Positions 16,501 to 27,206 of a stretch of DNA of 35,754 nt are shown here, in pieces (position 1 is the stretch's first letter; each line of letters starts with the position of its first letter). Origin of the DNA: an uncultured Lentisphaerota bacterium (GTDB lineage Bacteria > Verrucomicrobiota > Kiritimatiellia > CAIQIC01); NCBI GenBank assembly GCA_903889245.1, contig CAISWQ010000084.1, forward strand, positions 1 to 35,754. Direction: 5' to 3'. Below the pieces are notes generated by a model, which saw only the letters and a list, made by a program, of their open reading frames with translations, ran no database searches and was not told the DNA's origin. Both the position numbers and the translations under genes were made by a program.

Positions 16501-16506
16501 CCCAGC

Positions 16507-16548
16507 GAACAACGAACAACGAACATCCAACATCGAACATCGAACGAC
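16507..16548. repeat. Heptamer tandem repeat, 6 units
   Basis: Six exact seven-base steps: GAACAAC, GAACAAC, GAACATC, CAACATC, GAACATC, GAACGAC. They fill the gap between the tolC-type and adaptor genes and stop one base before the adaptor's GGAG ribosome binding site. They share the seven-base period, but not the sequence, of the repeats at 20993-21129 and 26759-27206. Confidence 0.8.
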
Positions 16549-17720: not shown

Positions 17721-17834
17721 TTTTCCAGGGATGGGAAAGCCGGGGCCGCTGTTTTTCCAAGGCTGGGAACATTTCGGCCCAGACGTTTCCAAGGCTTGGA
17801 AAATGAAAGGGAGTTTTTTCCAAGGCTTGGAAAC
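17721..17834. repeat. Palindrome array B, 4 units, 31-32 bp period
   Basis: Units lie at 17721-17739 (TTTTCCAGGGATGGGAAAG), 17753-17771 (TTTTCCAAGGCTGGGAACA), 17785-17803 (GTTTCCAAGGCTTGGAAAA) and 17816-17834 (TTTTCCAAGGCTTGGAAAC). Steps are 32, 32 and 31 bp. The array fills the gap between the adaptor and pump genes inside one operon and ends 23 bases before the pump's start codon. Conservation rises toward the pump gene. Confidence 0.9.
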
Positions 17835-17857: not shown

Positions 17858-20800
17858 GTGAGCTTCTCTGAAATCTTTGTGCGGCGTCCGATCGCGACGG
17901 TCCTGCTGACGACCCTGATGGTCGTCGCCGGCGCGTGGGCCTACCTGCGCCTGCCGGTCAACAGCCTGCCGACGGTGGACTATCCCGTCATCCAGGTCAT
18001 CGTGGCCTATCCCGGCGCGAGCCCGGCGACGATGGCCAGCGCGGTCGCGCTGCCGCTGGAGAACGAGTTCACGCAGATCAACGGCCTGCAGACGATGATC
18101 TCCGACAACAAGCAGGGCATCAGCACGATCAATCTGACCTTCAGCCTCGATCGCAATGTGGACTTGGTGGCGCCGGACGTGCAGGCGGCGATCACGCGCG
18201 CGCAGAACAACCTGCCCAAGGATCTGCCGAATCCGCCAACCTACAAGAAGTTCAATCCCTCCGATCAGCCGATCTTTTACGTCATGCTGCACTCCGACAC
18301 GCTGACGCACGGCGACCTGAACGATTACGGCAGCCACGTGATTGCGCGCAAGTTGAGCATGATCGAGGGCGTCTCGCAGGTGCAGGTCTATGGCGCGAAG
18401 CGCGCGGTGCGCATCCAGTTCAGCCCGGAGAAGCTCGCGGCCTACCAGCTCGGCGTGGATGAACTGGCCACGGCGCTGCGCGTCGGCACGGTCAACATCC
18501 CGGGCGGCACGCTCAACGGCGCGATGCGCACCTACGTCATCGAGCCACAAGGCCAGCTCCGCACCGGCCGCGAGTTTGGCGAGCTGATCGTGGCGCAGCG
18601 CAAGGGCGCGCCGGTCCGGCTCAAGGACGTGGCGAACTGCGTGGATAGCCTGGCCAATGACCTCGTCAACATCAAGTACACCAAGCCCGGCGAGGCGGAT
18701 TCCGACAAGTGCGTCGTCATGGCCATCTCGCGCGCGAGTGGCGCCAACACGGTGGCCGTGGCGGATGAAATCACCCGCGAGTTGGATGAGGCCAAGCACT
18801 CGCTGCCCGGTTCCGTTAAGATCGAGGTGATGCACAACGGCGCCGACCCGATCCGCGAGAGCCTGCACGATGTGCAGACGACGGTCGTCATCGCGCTGGT
18901 CCTCGTCGTGCTGGTGATCTTCTTCTTCCTCGGCCGCGTCCGGGAAACGGTCATCCCCAGCATCGTGCTGCCGATCTCGCTCATGGGCACGATGCTGCTG
19001 ATGTACCCGAGCAACTTCAACATAGACATCCTCTCGCTGATGGGCATCATCCTCGCCGTCGGCTTCCTGGTGGATGATGCGATCGTCGTGCTGGAGAACA
19101 CCGTGCGCCATCTGGAGGAGGGCAAGAAGCCGATTCCGGCGGCGCTGCAAAGCATGAAGGAGATTTCCTTCACGGTCATCTCCACCAGCGCGGCGCTGAT
19201 CATCGTCTTCATGCCGCTGGTCTTCATGAGCGGCGCCGTGGGCCGCAACCTGCGCGAGTTTGCGCTGACCGTCATCTTCGCCGTCATCGTCTCGACCGTC
19301 CTGGCGTTGACGCTCTCGCCGATGATGTGCGCGCATATTCTGCAGCATGAAAAGGCGCCGAATGCCGTCCAGCGCTGGATCACCAACAGCATCAACCGCC
19401 TGATCCGCGGTTACGGCGCAGCCCTGCACTGGCAGTTGCGCCACAAGTGGATGGCCCTCCTGATGTTGCTGCTCTGCACGCTGGGTACGGGCGGCCTCTT
19501 CGTCGTGCTGCCCGGCGATTTCCTGCCGCCGGGCGACAGCTCCTTCATCTTCGGCGCCATCATCATGCCGCAGGGCGCCTCGACGGAACAGATGCAGACC
19601 TTCCAGAACAAGGTGATGGCGGCGCTCAAGGAGGAACCGGCCGTCAAGCAGATCGGCAGCGTCACCGGCTTCCAGCCCGGCGCCGATCAAAGCATTGGTT
19701 TTGTTTTTGTCCGTCTCAAGCCCACGTCCGAGCGGCCTCCGATTGATAAGCTTGTCGAGCAGTTTGGCCACAAGTTGTTCCGCTTCCCGGAGGGTATTGT
19801 GGCCTTGCGTGCCGCGCCCGTGCTCAAGATCAGCTCCGGCGCCGAGTCCACCATGATGGGCAGCGAATATGCCTATATGCTCTCCGGCCTGGACCGGGCC
19901 AGCGTCTATGCCACCGGCCTGAAGCTCGAACAGGAAATCCGGCAGGTGCCGGGTGTCAATGCGTTCGCTGTCCAGAACAGCGTCAAGCTCAACATGCCCC
20001 GTTTGAATGTGGCGCTTGACCGCGATCGCGCCTCCGCGCTCGGCATCAGCGCCGGGGCCATCGAGCAGGCGCTCGCCTGGGCCTTTGCCGGCGGCTATGC
20101 CACGCAGTTCACCACCGACCAGGATCAATATCAGGTCATCCCGGAGATCGAGAAGCCCAGCCAGCGTCTGCCGGAGAACCTCGGCCTGCTCTATCTGCGT
20201 TCGCAACTGACGGGCAACCTGGTCCCGCTCAAGTCACTCGTGAACTGGACCGAGGAGGCCAGCCCGCAGAACGTCCCGCACGCCAACCAGCATGAGTCGG
20301 CGACCATTTCGTTCAGCAAGTGGCCCGGCGTTCCGCTCGGTTATGTCACCAAGGCCATCGAAGAACGCGCCGCCAAGCTCCTGCCGCCGGGCGTCGAGGG
20401 CGGGTTCGTCGGCGACGCGCTGGAGTTCAACAAATCCATCGCCAGCCTGGGCATCCTCATTCTCATCGCCATCTTCCTCAAATACATCGTGCTGGGCGTG
20501 CTCTACGAGAGCTATGTCCACCCGTTCACGATTCTCACGACGCTGCCCGTCGCCATGTTCGGCGGACTGGCGACGCTTTACGTGGCGCATCAGCTCTTTC
20601 CGAGCAGCGGCGCCGGGGTGCTGCACCTCTACGCCTATATTGGGCTTTTCGTGCTGATGGGTTTGATTACCAAGAACGGCATCCTGATGGTGGACTTTGC
20701 CGAGCAGCGGCGGCGCGAGGGCAAGAACGCCTACGACGCCATCCACGACGCCTGCTGCGTCCGCTTCCGCCCGATCCTGATGACCGGCCTGTGTGCGATT

Positions 20801-20986
20801 CTCGGCGCGATGCCCATCGCGTGCCGCTTCGGCGCCGATGCCTCCAGCCGCCAGCCGCTCGGCCTTGTCGTCGTCGGCGGCATGGTCTTCGCGCAGATCA
20901 TCACGCTCTTCGTCACGCCCGGCATCTACCTCTATATGGAGAAACTCCAGGAGCGCTTCTTCAAGGTCCGCACCGACCTGGAGTGA
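17858..20986 (+). CDS. RND-family multidrug efflux permease (AcrB/MdtB/MdtC type)
   Basis: A 1,042-residue inner-membrane pump of normal RND size. It begins SFSEIFVRRPIATVLLTTLM. The proton-relay aspartates are in VGFLVDDAIVVLENTVRH (TM4) and the lysine in LITKNGILMVDFAEQRRREG (TM10). Two large periplasmic loops lie between helices 1-2 and 7-8. It works with the preceding adaptor and channel to expel hydrophobic or amphiphilic compounds by proton exchange. The start is GTG at 17858 with CGGAG eight bases upstream. The 31-32 bp palindrome array separates it from the adaptor gene. Confidence 0.95.
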   Translation: MSFSEIFVRRPIATVLLTTLMVVAGAWAYLRLPVNSLPTVDYPVIQVIVAYPGASPATMASAVALPLENEFTQINGLQTMISDNKQGISTINLTFSLDRNVDLVAPDVQAAITRAQNNLPKDLPNPPTYKKFNPSDQPIFYVMLHSDTLTHGDLNDYGSHVIARKLSMIEGVSQVQVYGAKRAVRIQFSPEKLAAYQLGVDELATALRVGTVNIPGGTLNGAMRTYVIEPQGQLRTGREFGELIVAQRKGAPVRLKDVANCVDSLANDLVNIKYTKPGEADSDKCVVMAISRASGANTVAVADEITRELDEAKHSLPGSVKIEVMHNGADPIRESLHDVQTTVVIALVLVVLVIFFFLGRVRETVIPSIVLPISLMGTMLLMYPSNFNIDILSLMGIILAVGFLVDDAIVVLENTVRHLEEGKKPIPAALQSMKEISFTVISTSAALIIVFMPLVFMSGAVGRNLREFALTVIFAVIVSTVLALTLSPMMCAHILQHEKAPNAVQRWITNSINRLIRGYGAALHWQLRHKWMALLMLLLCTLGTGGLFVVLPGDFLPPGDSSFIFGAIIMPQGASTEQMQTFQNKVMAALKEEPAVKQIGSVTGFQPGADQSIGFVFVRLKPTSERPPIDKLVEQFGHKLFRFPEGIVALRAAPVLKISSGAESTMMGSEYAYMLSGLDRASVYATGLKLEQEIRQVPGVNAFAVQNSVKLNMPRLNVALDRDRASALGISAGAIEQALAWAFAGGYATQFTTDQDQYQVIPEIEKPSQRLPENLGLLYLRSQLTGNLVPLKSLVNWTEEASPQNVPHANQHESATISFSKWPGVPLGYVTKAIEERAAKLLPPGVEGGFVGDALEFNKSIASLGILILIAIFLKYIVLGVLYESYVHPFTILTTLPVAMFGGLATLYVAHQLFPSSGAGVLHLYAYIGLFVLMGLITKNGILMVDFAEQRRREGKNAYDAIHDACCVRFRPILMTGLCAILGAMPIACRFGADASSRQPLGLVVVGGMVFAQIITLFVTPGIYLYMEKLQERFFKVRTDLE

Positions 20987-20992
20987 ACCGCG

Positions 20993-21129
20993 GCCAGCGG
21001 ACAGAGATCAGAGATCAGAAGTCAGCGGTCAGCATAATTATGAACATTCCTTGTTCGCTCTTCTGCGGTTTCTCCGCCTCTTCTTCTGTCTGCCCTCTGA
21101 CTTCTGATCTCTGACTTCTGACCTCTGGC
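20993..21129. repeat. Short element bounded by 40-bp heptamer inverted repeats
   Basis: Bases 20993-21032 and 21090-21129 form an inverted repeat with 34 of 40 positions identical. Both arms are seven-base-period runs (AGAGATC, AGAAGTC and similar). Only 57 bases lie between. Read on the minus strand, the arm leads through a purine-rich stretch to AAGGA-ATG and a 10-codon reading frame that ends at a TGA inside the other arm. This mirrors the arrangement of the four-helix-bundle element at 26759-27206, without the gene. It fills most of the 197-bp gap between the pump gene and glyQS. Confidence 0.75.
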
Positions 21130-21183
21130 TTGCGCGTTCTTCGCGCTTGACCCTGCGGGGTGGCTCAAGCACGATGCGCGGCC

Positions 21184-22623
21184 ATGAGTGCACAGGAAAA
21201 AAACAATAAACTGGAGGCGCTGGCTTCGCTCTGTAAGCGCCGCGGGTTCATCTTCCAAACCTCGGAAATCTATGGCGGCCTGAACGGCTTCTGGGATTAC
21301 GGCCCGCTCGGCGCCGAGCTGAAGCGCAATATCAAGGACGCGTGGTGGAAGGCGATGGTCCACGAGCGCGAGGACATCGTCGGGCTCGACTCCGCGATCA
21401 TCCAGCATCCGCGGACGTGGGAGGCCTCCGGGCATCTCGAAGGCTTCACCGACCCGATGGTGGATTGCAAGGCGTGCAAGAAGCGCTTCCGCGCCGACCA
21501 GTTCTGCGAGGAGCAGGGGCTGAAGTTGGAGTGCGACGCGAACAAAAAGCCGCTGCTGCCCGCGGGCGCCAAGTGCCCGGCGTGCGGCTCCAAGGACATC
21601 ACGCCGCCGCGCGCGTTCAACCTGATGTTCAAGACCTATGTGGGCCCGCAGGAGGACACCTCGACGCTCGCGTTCCTGCGGCCGGAGACCGCGCAGGGGA
21701 TTTTCGCGCAGTACAACAACGTGCTCGCGTGCGCGCGCGTGAAGGTGCCGTTCGGCATCGCGCAAATCGGCAAGGCGTTCCGCAACGAGATCAATCCGCG
21801 CAACTACACGTTCCGCTCGCGCGAGTTCGAGCAGATGGAACTGGAATTTTTCGTCAAGCCCGGCACCGACGCCGAGTGGCACGAGTACTGGGTGGCCGAG
21901 CGGCTCAAGTGGTACAGCCGCATCGGGCTGCCGGAGGGCCATCTGCACCGCTACGTCTATGGCAAGGACGAGCTCGCGCATTACGCGAGCGCGTGCGTGG
22001 ACGTGCTCTATGACTTCCCGTTCGGCACGCAGGAACTCGAAGGCATCGCCGCGCGCGGCGACTTCGACCTTGGCCGTCACCAGCAGTTCAGCGGCAAGTC
22101 CATGGAGTATTTCGACCAGGACACGAAGGAAAAATTCGTACCGCACGTCGTCGAGCCTTCGGCCGGCACCGACCGCATCGCGCTGGCGTTGCTGTGCGAG
22201 GCGTTCCACGAGGAATGGGTGCCGACTAGCGATGTCGCGGGCGCTCAGCCGATTCCCGTGGACTACGACAACCCGAAGCAGCCGCAGGGCCACGAGCTGC
22301 GCACCGTGCTGCGCTTCGCGCCGTGCATCGCGCCCATCAAGGTCGCGGTCTTCCCGCTGCTCAAGAACAAGCCCGACCTCGTGACCAAGGCGCGCGGCGT
22401 CTATGACACGCTGCGCAAGCGCTGGAGCGCGTTCTGGGATGTCGCCGGCGCGATCGGCCGCCGCTACCGCCGGCAGGACGAGATCGGTACGCCGTTCGGC
22501 GTCACGGTGGACTTCCAAACCCTGGAAGACGACACCGTCACGCTGCGCGAGCGCGACTCGATGCAACAGGTGCGTGTGAAGATTGGCGAATTGCCGGAAC
22601 GTCTGTCCGCCGCGATTGGATGA
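21184..22623 (+). CDS. glyQS: Glycyl-tRNA synthetase, single-chain homodimeric type
   Basis: A 479-residue class II aminoacyl-tRNA synthetase of the alpha2 type; the alpha2beta2 type would need two genes. It shows SLCKRRGFIFQTSEIYGG, a CxxC-rich insertion (CKACKKRF, CPACGSKD), motif 2 in FRNEINPRNYTFRSREFEQM and motif 3 in EPSAGTDRIALALL. The C-terminal anticodon-binding domain begins near APCIAPIKVAVFPL. It charges tRNA-Gly. The ATG at 21184 is selected from the conserved start; no clear Shine-Dalgarno precedes it. A GTG at 21160 would add eight residues. Confidence 0.96.
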   Translation: MSAQEKNNKLEALASLCKRRGFIFQTSEIYGGLNGFWDYGPLGAELKRNIKDAWWKAMVHEREDIVGLDSAIIQHPRTWEASGHLEGFTDPMVDCKACKKRFRADQFCEEQGLKLECDANKKPLLPAGAKCPACGSKDITPPRAFNLMFKTYVGPQEDTSTLAFLRPETAQGIFAQYNNVLACARVKVPFGIAQIGKAFRNEINPRNYTFRSREFEQMELEFFVKPGTDAEWHEYWVAERLKWYSRIGLPEGHLHRYVYGKDELAHYASACVDVLYDFPFGTQELEGIAARGDFDLGRHQQFSGKSMEYFDQDTKEKFVPHVVEPSAGTDRIALALLCEAFHEEWVPTSDVAGAQPIPVDYDNPKQPQGHELRTVLRFAPCIAPIKVAVFPLLKNKPDLVTKARGVYDTLRKRWSAFWDVAGAIGRRYRRQDEIGTPFGVTVDFQTLEDDTVTLRERDSMQQVRVKIGELPERLSAAIG

Positions 22624-26758: not shown

Positions 26759-26783
26759 CCAGAGGTCAGAAGTCAGAGTTCAG
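26759..26783. repeat. Left inverted repeat of the four-helix-bundle element
   Basis: A seven-base-period sequence (AGAGGTC, AGAAGTC, AGAGTTC, with a further AGAAGTC inward to 26790), an exact inverse of 27182-27206 over 25 bases. It contains the stop codon and last codons of the four-helix-bundle gene. Confidence 0.9.
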
Positions 26784-27156
26784 AAGTCAGTAAGAAGGGT
26801 TTCGGGTTGTTGATCATAGAGCCGAGCATCTTGCCGACTTCGGCGCACAGACCGGAAAGTCTGCGGTGTGTTTCATCGTTCAGGTAGTCAGTGTTGCGGG
26901 CGAAATCAATCCACGTATCGGTCTCGGCATTCTCGCCATCTGCATCCGTCAGTTTACTCACGAAATGAGCCTCATATTTTCGCTTCGCCCAAGCCTCGCG
27001 GAGGTTCGCACACACAGATCGCGACGACCTGCGTATCTGGTCGGTCAATGAATAGCGCTCATCTTTCGGAAAAGATTTCGAGACAGCAAAAATCTCCATC
27101 GCGAGGCTGTAAGCCTTTTGATAAGCAATCAAATCTTTCGCTGATCGAATCTGCAT
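26773..27156 (-). CDS. Four-helix-bundle protein (23S rRNA intervening-sequence / bS23 type)
   Basis: A 127-residue protein with the family's usual features: SAKDLIAYQKAYSLAMEIF, SFPKDERYSLTDQIRRSSRSV, ANLREAWAKR, FVSKLTDADGENAETDTWIDFA and YLNDETHRRLSGLCAEVGKML. The family was first met inside 23S rRNA intervening sequences, and the Avd proteins of diversity-generating retroelements share the fold. Its molecular role is not established. Here it stands alone between hisI and trpE. The ATG at 27156 follows a GGAAGAG-type ribosome binding site. The last residues (LLTSEL) and the TGA come from the left inverted repeat, so the repeat and the gene form one unit. Confidence 0.88.
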   Translation of the reverse strand: MQIRSAKDLIAYQKAYSLAMEIFAVSKSFPKDERYSLTDQIRRSSRSVCANLREAWAKRKYEAHFVSKLTDADGENAETDTWIDFARNTDYLNDETHRRLSGLCAEVGKMLGSMINNPKPFLLTSEL

Positions 27157-27181
27157 CTCTGCTCTTCCTTCTTCCTCACCG

Positions 27182-27206
27182 CTGAACTCTGACTTCTGAC
27201 CTCTGG
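27182..27206. repeat. Right inverted repeat of the four-helix-bundle element
   Basis: An exact 25-base inverse of 26759-26783. It lies upstream of the four-helix-bundle ATG and ends three bases before the hisI stop codon as read on the plus strand. Confidence 0.9.

Follow-up and report, generated by a model that had tools for sequence, protein, structure and literature searches.

A gene-less, heptamer-armed hairpin upstream of glyS in a Lentisphaerota genome and its probable relation to elements that encode intervening-sequence proteins

Results

The window analyzed in this work is the whole stretch of 35,754 nucleotides of contig CAISWQ010000084.1 from an uncultured Lentisphaerota bacterium (GenBank assembly GCA_903889245.1). 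In it, an AcrB-like RND gene (17858-20986) is followed by the glycyl-tRNA synthetase gene (glyS, start near 21184), and a hairpin of 137 bases at 20993-21129 lies in the gap that separates the RND stop codon from the conserved upstream sequence of glyS, not in a 23S rRNA gene. No S23-type gene for an intervening-sequence protein (IVP) is found inside this unit. Such a gene is present in a second unit of 448 bp at 26759-27206, which encloses a reading frame of the 23S rRNA intervening-sequence protein family (PF05635, E 3.5e-33); its product also matches the bAvd model PF22296 (E 3e-15). A single array makes up the third heptamer tract of the window. The features are as follows.

16503-16545, plus strand: single (GAACATC)n array, of the family that forms the arms at IVP loci L328/L334
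20993-21032, minus strand: left arm of the hairpin, (TCAGAGG)-family heptamer array (20982-21034 in the tract scan)
21033-21089, no strand assigned: hairpin interior of 57 bases; its minus strand contains AACCGCAGAAGAGCGAACAAGGAATG, another dispersed repeat (IVP-arm family, locus L323)
21090-21129, plus strand: right arm of the hairpin, (CCTCTGA)-family heptamer array (21080-21131 in the tract scan)
26759-26798, minus strand: left arm of the IVP element, in which the IVP reading frame has its stop codon
26773-27237, minus strand: open frame of the PF05635/bAvd-like protein (IVP), with a likely start ATG near 27156
27167-27206, plus strand: right arm of the IVP element

A palindrome, TTTTCCAAGGCTTGGAAAA, is repeated in the window at 17789, 17820, 25133, 25195, 28672 and 34531; elsewhere in the genome it often adjoins heptamer tracts, e.g. 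at C56:26023-26408.

The anatomy given in an earlier, sequence-only reading was borne out: the inverted arms measure 40 bp, are complementary at 34 of 40 positions and enclose 57 bases. Folded as RNA, the unit reaches −73.1 kcal/mol, compared with −40.7 ± 3.6 kcal/mol for shuffled sequences, none of 200 being as good (z = −8.9 on the plus strand and −7.6 on the minus strand). Given this high stability and the position in the gap described above, the hairpin might be retained for a function of its own, terminating transcription or being processed by RNase III at the boundary of the RND operon and glyS. We consider this very unlikely, since no T-run follows the hairpin, in same-genus relatives no such hairpin follows the RND gene or precedes glyS, and the same heptamer family is contained in coding genes. 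In the relatives checked, RND and glyS are not adjacent and are without tracts, and they offered no clean empty site for the unit. The RND-glyS adjacency (window 20986-21140) was seen only in the bacterium's own genome among these relatives, and the hairpin sits on the rearrangement point.

On the minus strand, the unit does contain GGAATG, ten codons (MFIIMLTADF) and a TGA inside the opposite arm, as had been described. The sequence-only reading had seen in this start signal ('AAGGA-ATG') and stop the plan of a lost gene, and hence in the unit the 448-bp element with its reading frame deleted. An internal deletion copy would be in line with the heptamer family common to both units, which are about 5.7 kb apart, and with their similar hairpin plan. 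Yet aligning the interior with that IVP element, its ends as well as its core, gave a score of only 7.8-8, the same as for shuffles. Instead, the start signal is part of a different repeat family, GAACCGCAGAATAGCGAACAAGGAATNTCGAAGG, of which AACCGCAGAAGAGCGAACAAGGAATG is a member and of which the genome holds several further copies. In genome G001, an IVP element other than that of the window (L323) has the GAACCGCAGAATAGCGAACAAGGAATNTCGAAGG repeat as an arm; the match scored 13.4, a value that 1 of 100 shuffles attained. From this it follows that the unit, judged by its sequence, is composite, with one arm family enclosing a piece of another. Furthermore, each of the three frames of (TCTGACC)n contains a TGA, so that a stop in the opposite arm arises automatically and is uninformative as evidence of a lost gene, whereas (TCAGAGG)n has no stop in any frame. 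As the heptamer family also has many other tracts in the genome, descent of the hairpin from its neighbor by internal deletion seems hardly credible.

Similar inverted-repeat units without a gene turned out to be numerous, as the sequence-only reading had anticipated. The pattern TCTGACTTCTGACNTCTG (up to 3 mismatches) matched the genome 195 times (87 + 108), compared with 2 matches (2 + 0) for the backwards pattern. A tract census that covered stretches of the genome yielded 66 tracts scoring at least 16 and none in a Markov control. In 395 kb around tracts, 35 segments had a lag of 7, against 0-7 segments at other lags (14 and 21 excepted); in a 299-kb sample not chosen for tracts, period-7 tracts were few and belonged to other families. 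Only eight PF05635 matches, one of them weak, are present in the genome, and gene-less tracts therefore dominate. Where tracts on opposite strands lay less than 150 bp apart, the purine arm came first in 12:0 cases; the inverted pair is hence a unit with polarity and not a product of chance neighbors. Many short gene-less units with terminal inverted repeats thus occur in this genome, with ends in common with the gene-bearing IVP element. A 218-bp period-7 array at L002:1356-1573 (C66:20225-20442) mixes several heptamer families.

Arrays of this kind also run in frame through long open frames, which we named from reading their translations: isoleucyl-tRNA synthetase (IleRS), an RND pump, two E2-type lipoyl proteins, QueA and a nucleotidyltransferase. 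Six glycoside-hydrolase-like genes, likewise named from translations (L016, L018, L051, L004, L108 and L115), have a heptamer insert at the identical site after YRKxFDLP, five of the six as inverted pairs in which the TCCGACC change prevents a stop. The purine-rich arm can be read within genes because there is no stop codon in it; the '+' arms in coding sequence hold changes such as TCCGACC that avoid the stop. These in-frame palindromic inserts in unrelated genes were found for other members of the heptamer family, not for the 20993-21129 unit.

The arrays in these slots are interchangeable. In a comparison of 47 genomes, the IleRS linker of most class members was 39-57 bases long and non-periodic; in the bacterium's own order (and in G036) it consisted of differing heptamer arrays, all in frame: (TCAGAGG) in G000, (GTCCCTC) in G001, (CAATCGG) in G002, an ATGGTGA-type inverted pair in G003, AAGTCCA in G010, G011 and G014, and others elsewhere. 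In G002, the IleRS array is the same as the arms flanking an IVP gene of that genome (L326). At the RND slot, we found the TCTGACC family in G001 and G002 and GGATGGT units in G003, and the QueA slot of G005 held other arrays. The U32 site was filled in G002 and G003 and had unrelated sequence in G004 and G005.

Filled and empty versions could be compared at one intergenic site, hisI-trpE, where relatives display full, gene-less, remnant and empty states. The full IVP element of the window is present in G000, G002 and G003, and a gap of 17 bp in G001; G005 retains the remnant CCAGAGGTCAGATTTC, and the inverted pair seen in G014 is gene-less and of another IVP-arm family, GTCAGTTG. No target-site duplication was visible at hisI-trpE. 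In G010, the hisI-trpE gap (L260) contains an inverted repeat that encloses no gene and has a longer unit, CCGCTAATTAACGCGAATTTACGC...

Beyond the single site, arrays accompany most of the IVP genes sampled. Lag-7 arrays stood beside 21 of the 36 IVP genes of the class, and none at a distance of 670-900 bp. A larger set of 87 IVP loci spanned about a dozen phylum-level groups, with inverted arms (score at least 14) at 71 and a period-7 or -8 array at 73 of them; distant flanks showed inverted arms in only 3 of 37 cases. The arm heptamer varies between IVP elements, and copies within one genome have unrelated arms. Arm similarity tracks IVP protein identity (r = 0.50 over all pairs; 0.46 when the two loci come from different phylum groups, with a permutation p = 0.0002 that ignores the tree). 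The subfamily of the window IVP was represented by 21 members from about eight phyla (Lentisphaerae/Kiritimatiellia, Verrucomicrobia, Desulfobacterota, Planctomycetes, Sumerlaeota, Acidobacteria, Ignavibacteria and Cloacimonadota). Its loci, which were gathered by IVP similarity with a single-protein query and are hence not independent of the element's common descent, have a TCAGAGG-type tract within 70 bp upstream in 16/21 and downstream in 16/21 cases, and their cross-phylum flank similarity is at background beyond 140 bp. As the arm heptamer goes with the protein subfamily in different phyla, and flanks cease to be similar within about 140 bp, arm, IVP gene and arm make up one heritable and horizontally spread unit.

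The correspondence extends to arrays without a gene. In the bacterium's own genome, 36 of 47 period-7 tracts matched an IVP arm of the class at a score of at least 15, compared with 9 when heptamer columns were scrambled; a mirror-image control was unsuitable, as mirrored TCAGAGG resembles another arm family. For slot arrays, 16 of 30 matched IVP arms against 3.4 in the control; some match no sampled arm because arms evolve fast.

These results bear on the main rival explanation, in which heptamer tracts are immobile, slippage-born microsatellites similar to STRR, and IVP elements prefer to insert there, so that the arms are the target. Copy number indeed varies, the arrays occupy unconstrained linkers and gaps, and heptamer repeats are over-represented in bacteria (PMC4692102). 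Nevertheless, slippage would account neither for arm families that follow IVP subfamilies across phyla with a sharp end at the arms nor for inverted pairs of fixed polarity (12:0), and the same IVP-arm families also make up the gene-less arrays. We therefore regard it as unlikely.

An inverted pair with a short spacer is also reminiscent of REPINs, which would be mobilized by an IS200/RAYT-type Y1 transposase, and Y1_Tnp genes occurred in 20 of 20 genomes searched. Period-7 arrays bordered none of 12 Y1_Tnp loci, the bacterium's own genome has only two weak Y1_Tnp matches, and the arms are tandem heptamers rather than REP palindromes, all of which makes a REPIN-like origin extremely improbable. 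Y1 transposase and reverse transcriptase genes were not bordered by arrays (lag-7 segment of at least 11 at 1/20).

Discussion

With moderate confidence, we interpret the hairpin at 20993-21129 as non-autonomous and gene-less, belonging to a class of small mobile elements that resemble intervening sequences (IVSs) and are linked to IVP proteins. The sequence-only reading had proposed a MITE-like derivative. This description fits insofar as gene-less copies are many and their heptamers are common to the arms of IVP elements; its derivation as a deletion copy of the neighboring IVP element did not hold.

A full element consists of an arm, an IVP gene and an inverted arm, and each arm is built from 7- or 8-base units in a short tandem array. 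In this reading, the arm is part of the element and not of its target, given that different IVP subfamilies have different arms and that an arm stays with its protein in distant phyla. Copies without the gene, either inverted pairs or single arms, are by far the more numerous; they settle in intergenic gaps and tolerant protein linkers, and in coding linkers the purine-rich arm can be read through. This anatomy, the unit nature, the match between copies with and without the gene and the occupancy states are shown by the data above; the mechanism that we propose for them is inferred. In it, the transcript or single strand might fold into the arm hairpin, to which a pentameric IVP, related to Avd of diversity-generating retroelements, could bind, and the IVP may thereby help gene-less copies to spread in trans. 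By analogy with 23S rRNA, RNase III would process such hairpins in transcripts. Arrays in genes may survive since the purine arm is open in all frames. A reverse transcriptase was considered as local driver and rejected, as no RVT_1 match was found in the own or same-genus genomes (G000-G003); it is not needed in the cell at present, and a past or borrowed activity is possible.

We may further speculate that each IVP (S23/Avd-like) protein owns a heptamer 'address' in its arms and mobilizes gene-less copies that bear it, so that essential proteins of several phyla acquire in-frame linkers that are interchangeable. The elements would then form a previously unrecognized mobile-element class with the rRNA IVS as its special case, a generalization that we put forward tentatively and hold to be possible rather than probable. 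To our knowledge, the origin and spread of 23S rRNA IVSs and the role of S23/IVP proteins have been open questions since about 1990, and we know of no explanation so far for bacterial heptamer repeats. If the correspondence between IVP subfamily and arm heptamer holds, it would join these two puzzles, and it makes the question whether an IVP binds its own arm directly testable. Interchangeable in-frame arrays could moreover supply essential proteins with new disordered linkers. In the open-licence literature, we found no published link between heptamer repeats and IVP genes beyond the IVS repeats of Coxiella.

The closest known system is the 23S rRNA IVS of Coxiella, Leptospira and Xanthomonas, a stem with an S23 gene that replaces small rRNA loops (PMC4990558). 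In Coxiella, tandem GACAGAT heptamers precede the S23 gene and RNase III excises the IVS; the Xanthomonas protein of the PF05635 family is described as a homopentamer (PMC4990558), and structures of the family have been solved (2GSC, 2RLD). Common to both are the PF05635 protein, inverted arms as a long stem, short replaceable loops as sites, a sporadic distribution and, in Coxiella, the heptamers before the gene (PMC4990558). In contrast to rRNA IVSs, the elements described here lie outside rRNA, in intergenic gaps and protein-coding genes, are mostly gene-less, and belong to many arm families that coexist in one genome.

Bacterial MITEs are likewise short and gene-less and share inverted ends with a gene-bearing element; here the ends are heptamer arrays, no target duplication was seen and the partner gene is PF05635, not a transposase. 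Rickettsia palindromic elements also insert in frame within unrelated genes (PMC10969869), but they are fixed families of about 150 bp in Rickettsia, whereas we observe interchangeable heptamer arrays that match a protein-coding partner element. STRR of cyanobacteria, TAACTGA of Beggiatoaceae and G-rich heptamers of Xanthomonas/Nostoc are tandem, dispersed 7-base units, mostly intergenic, with some in ORFs in the stop-free direction; the accessible text of PMC4679880 and PMC4692102 mentions no IVP link for them, and they differ from the inverted pairs of fixed polarity found here. Finally, the match of the window IVP to the bAvd model agrees with the homology to Avd of diversity-generating retroelements noted in PMC10053308, although neither reverse transcriptase nor template nor variable repeat was found here.

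Nostoc and Brasilonema plasmids carry IVP genes (L314-L318) with arms of GGGGAGCA-type units, the Nostoc plasmid copies mostly with 8-base units. Some of these plasmid IVP genes directly precede a tyrosine recombinase.
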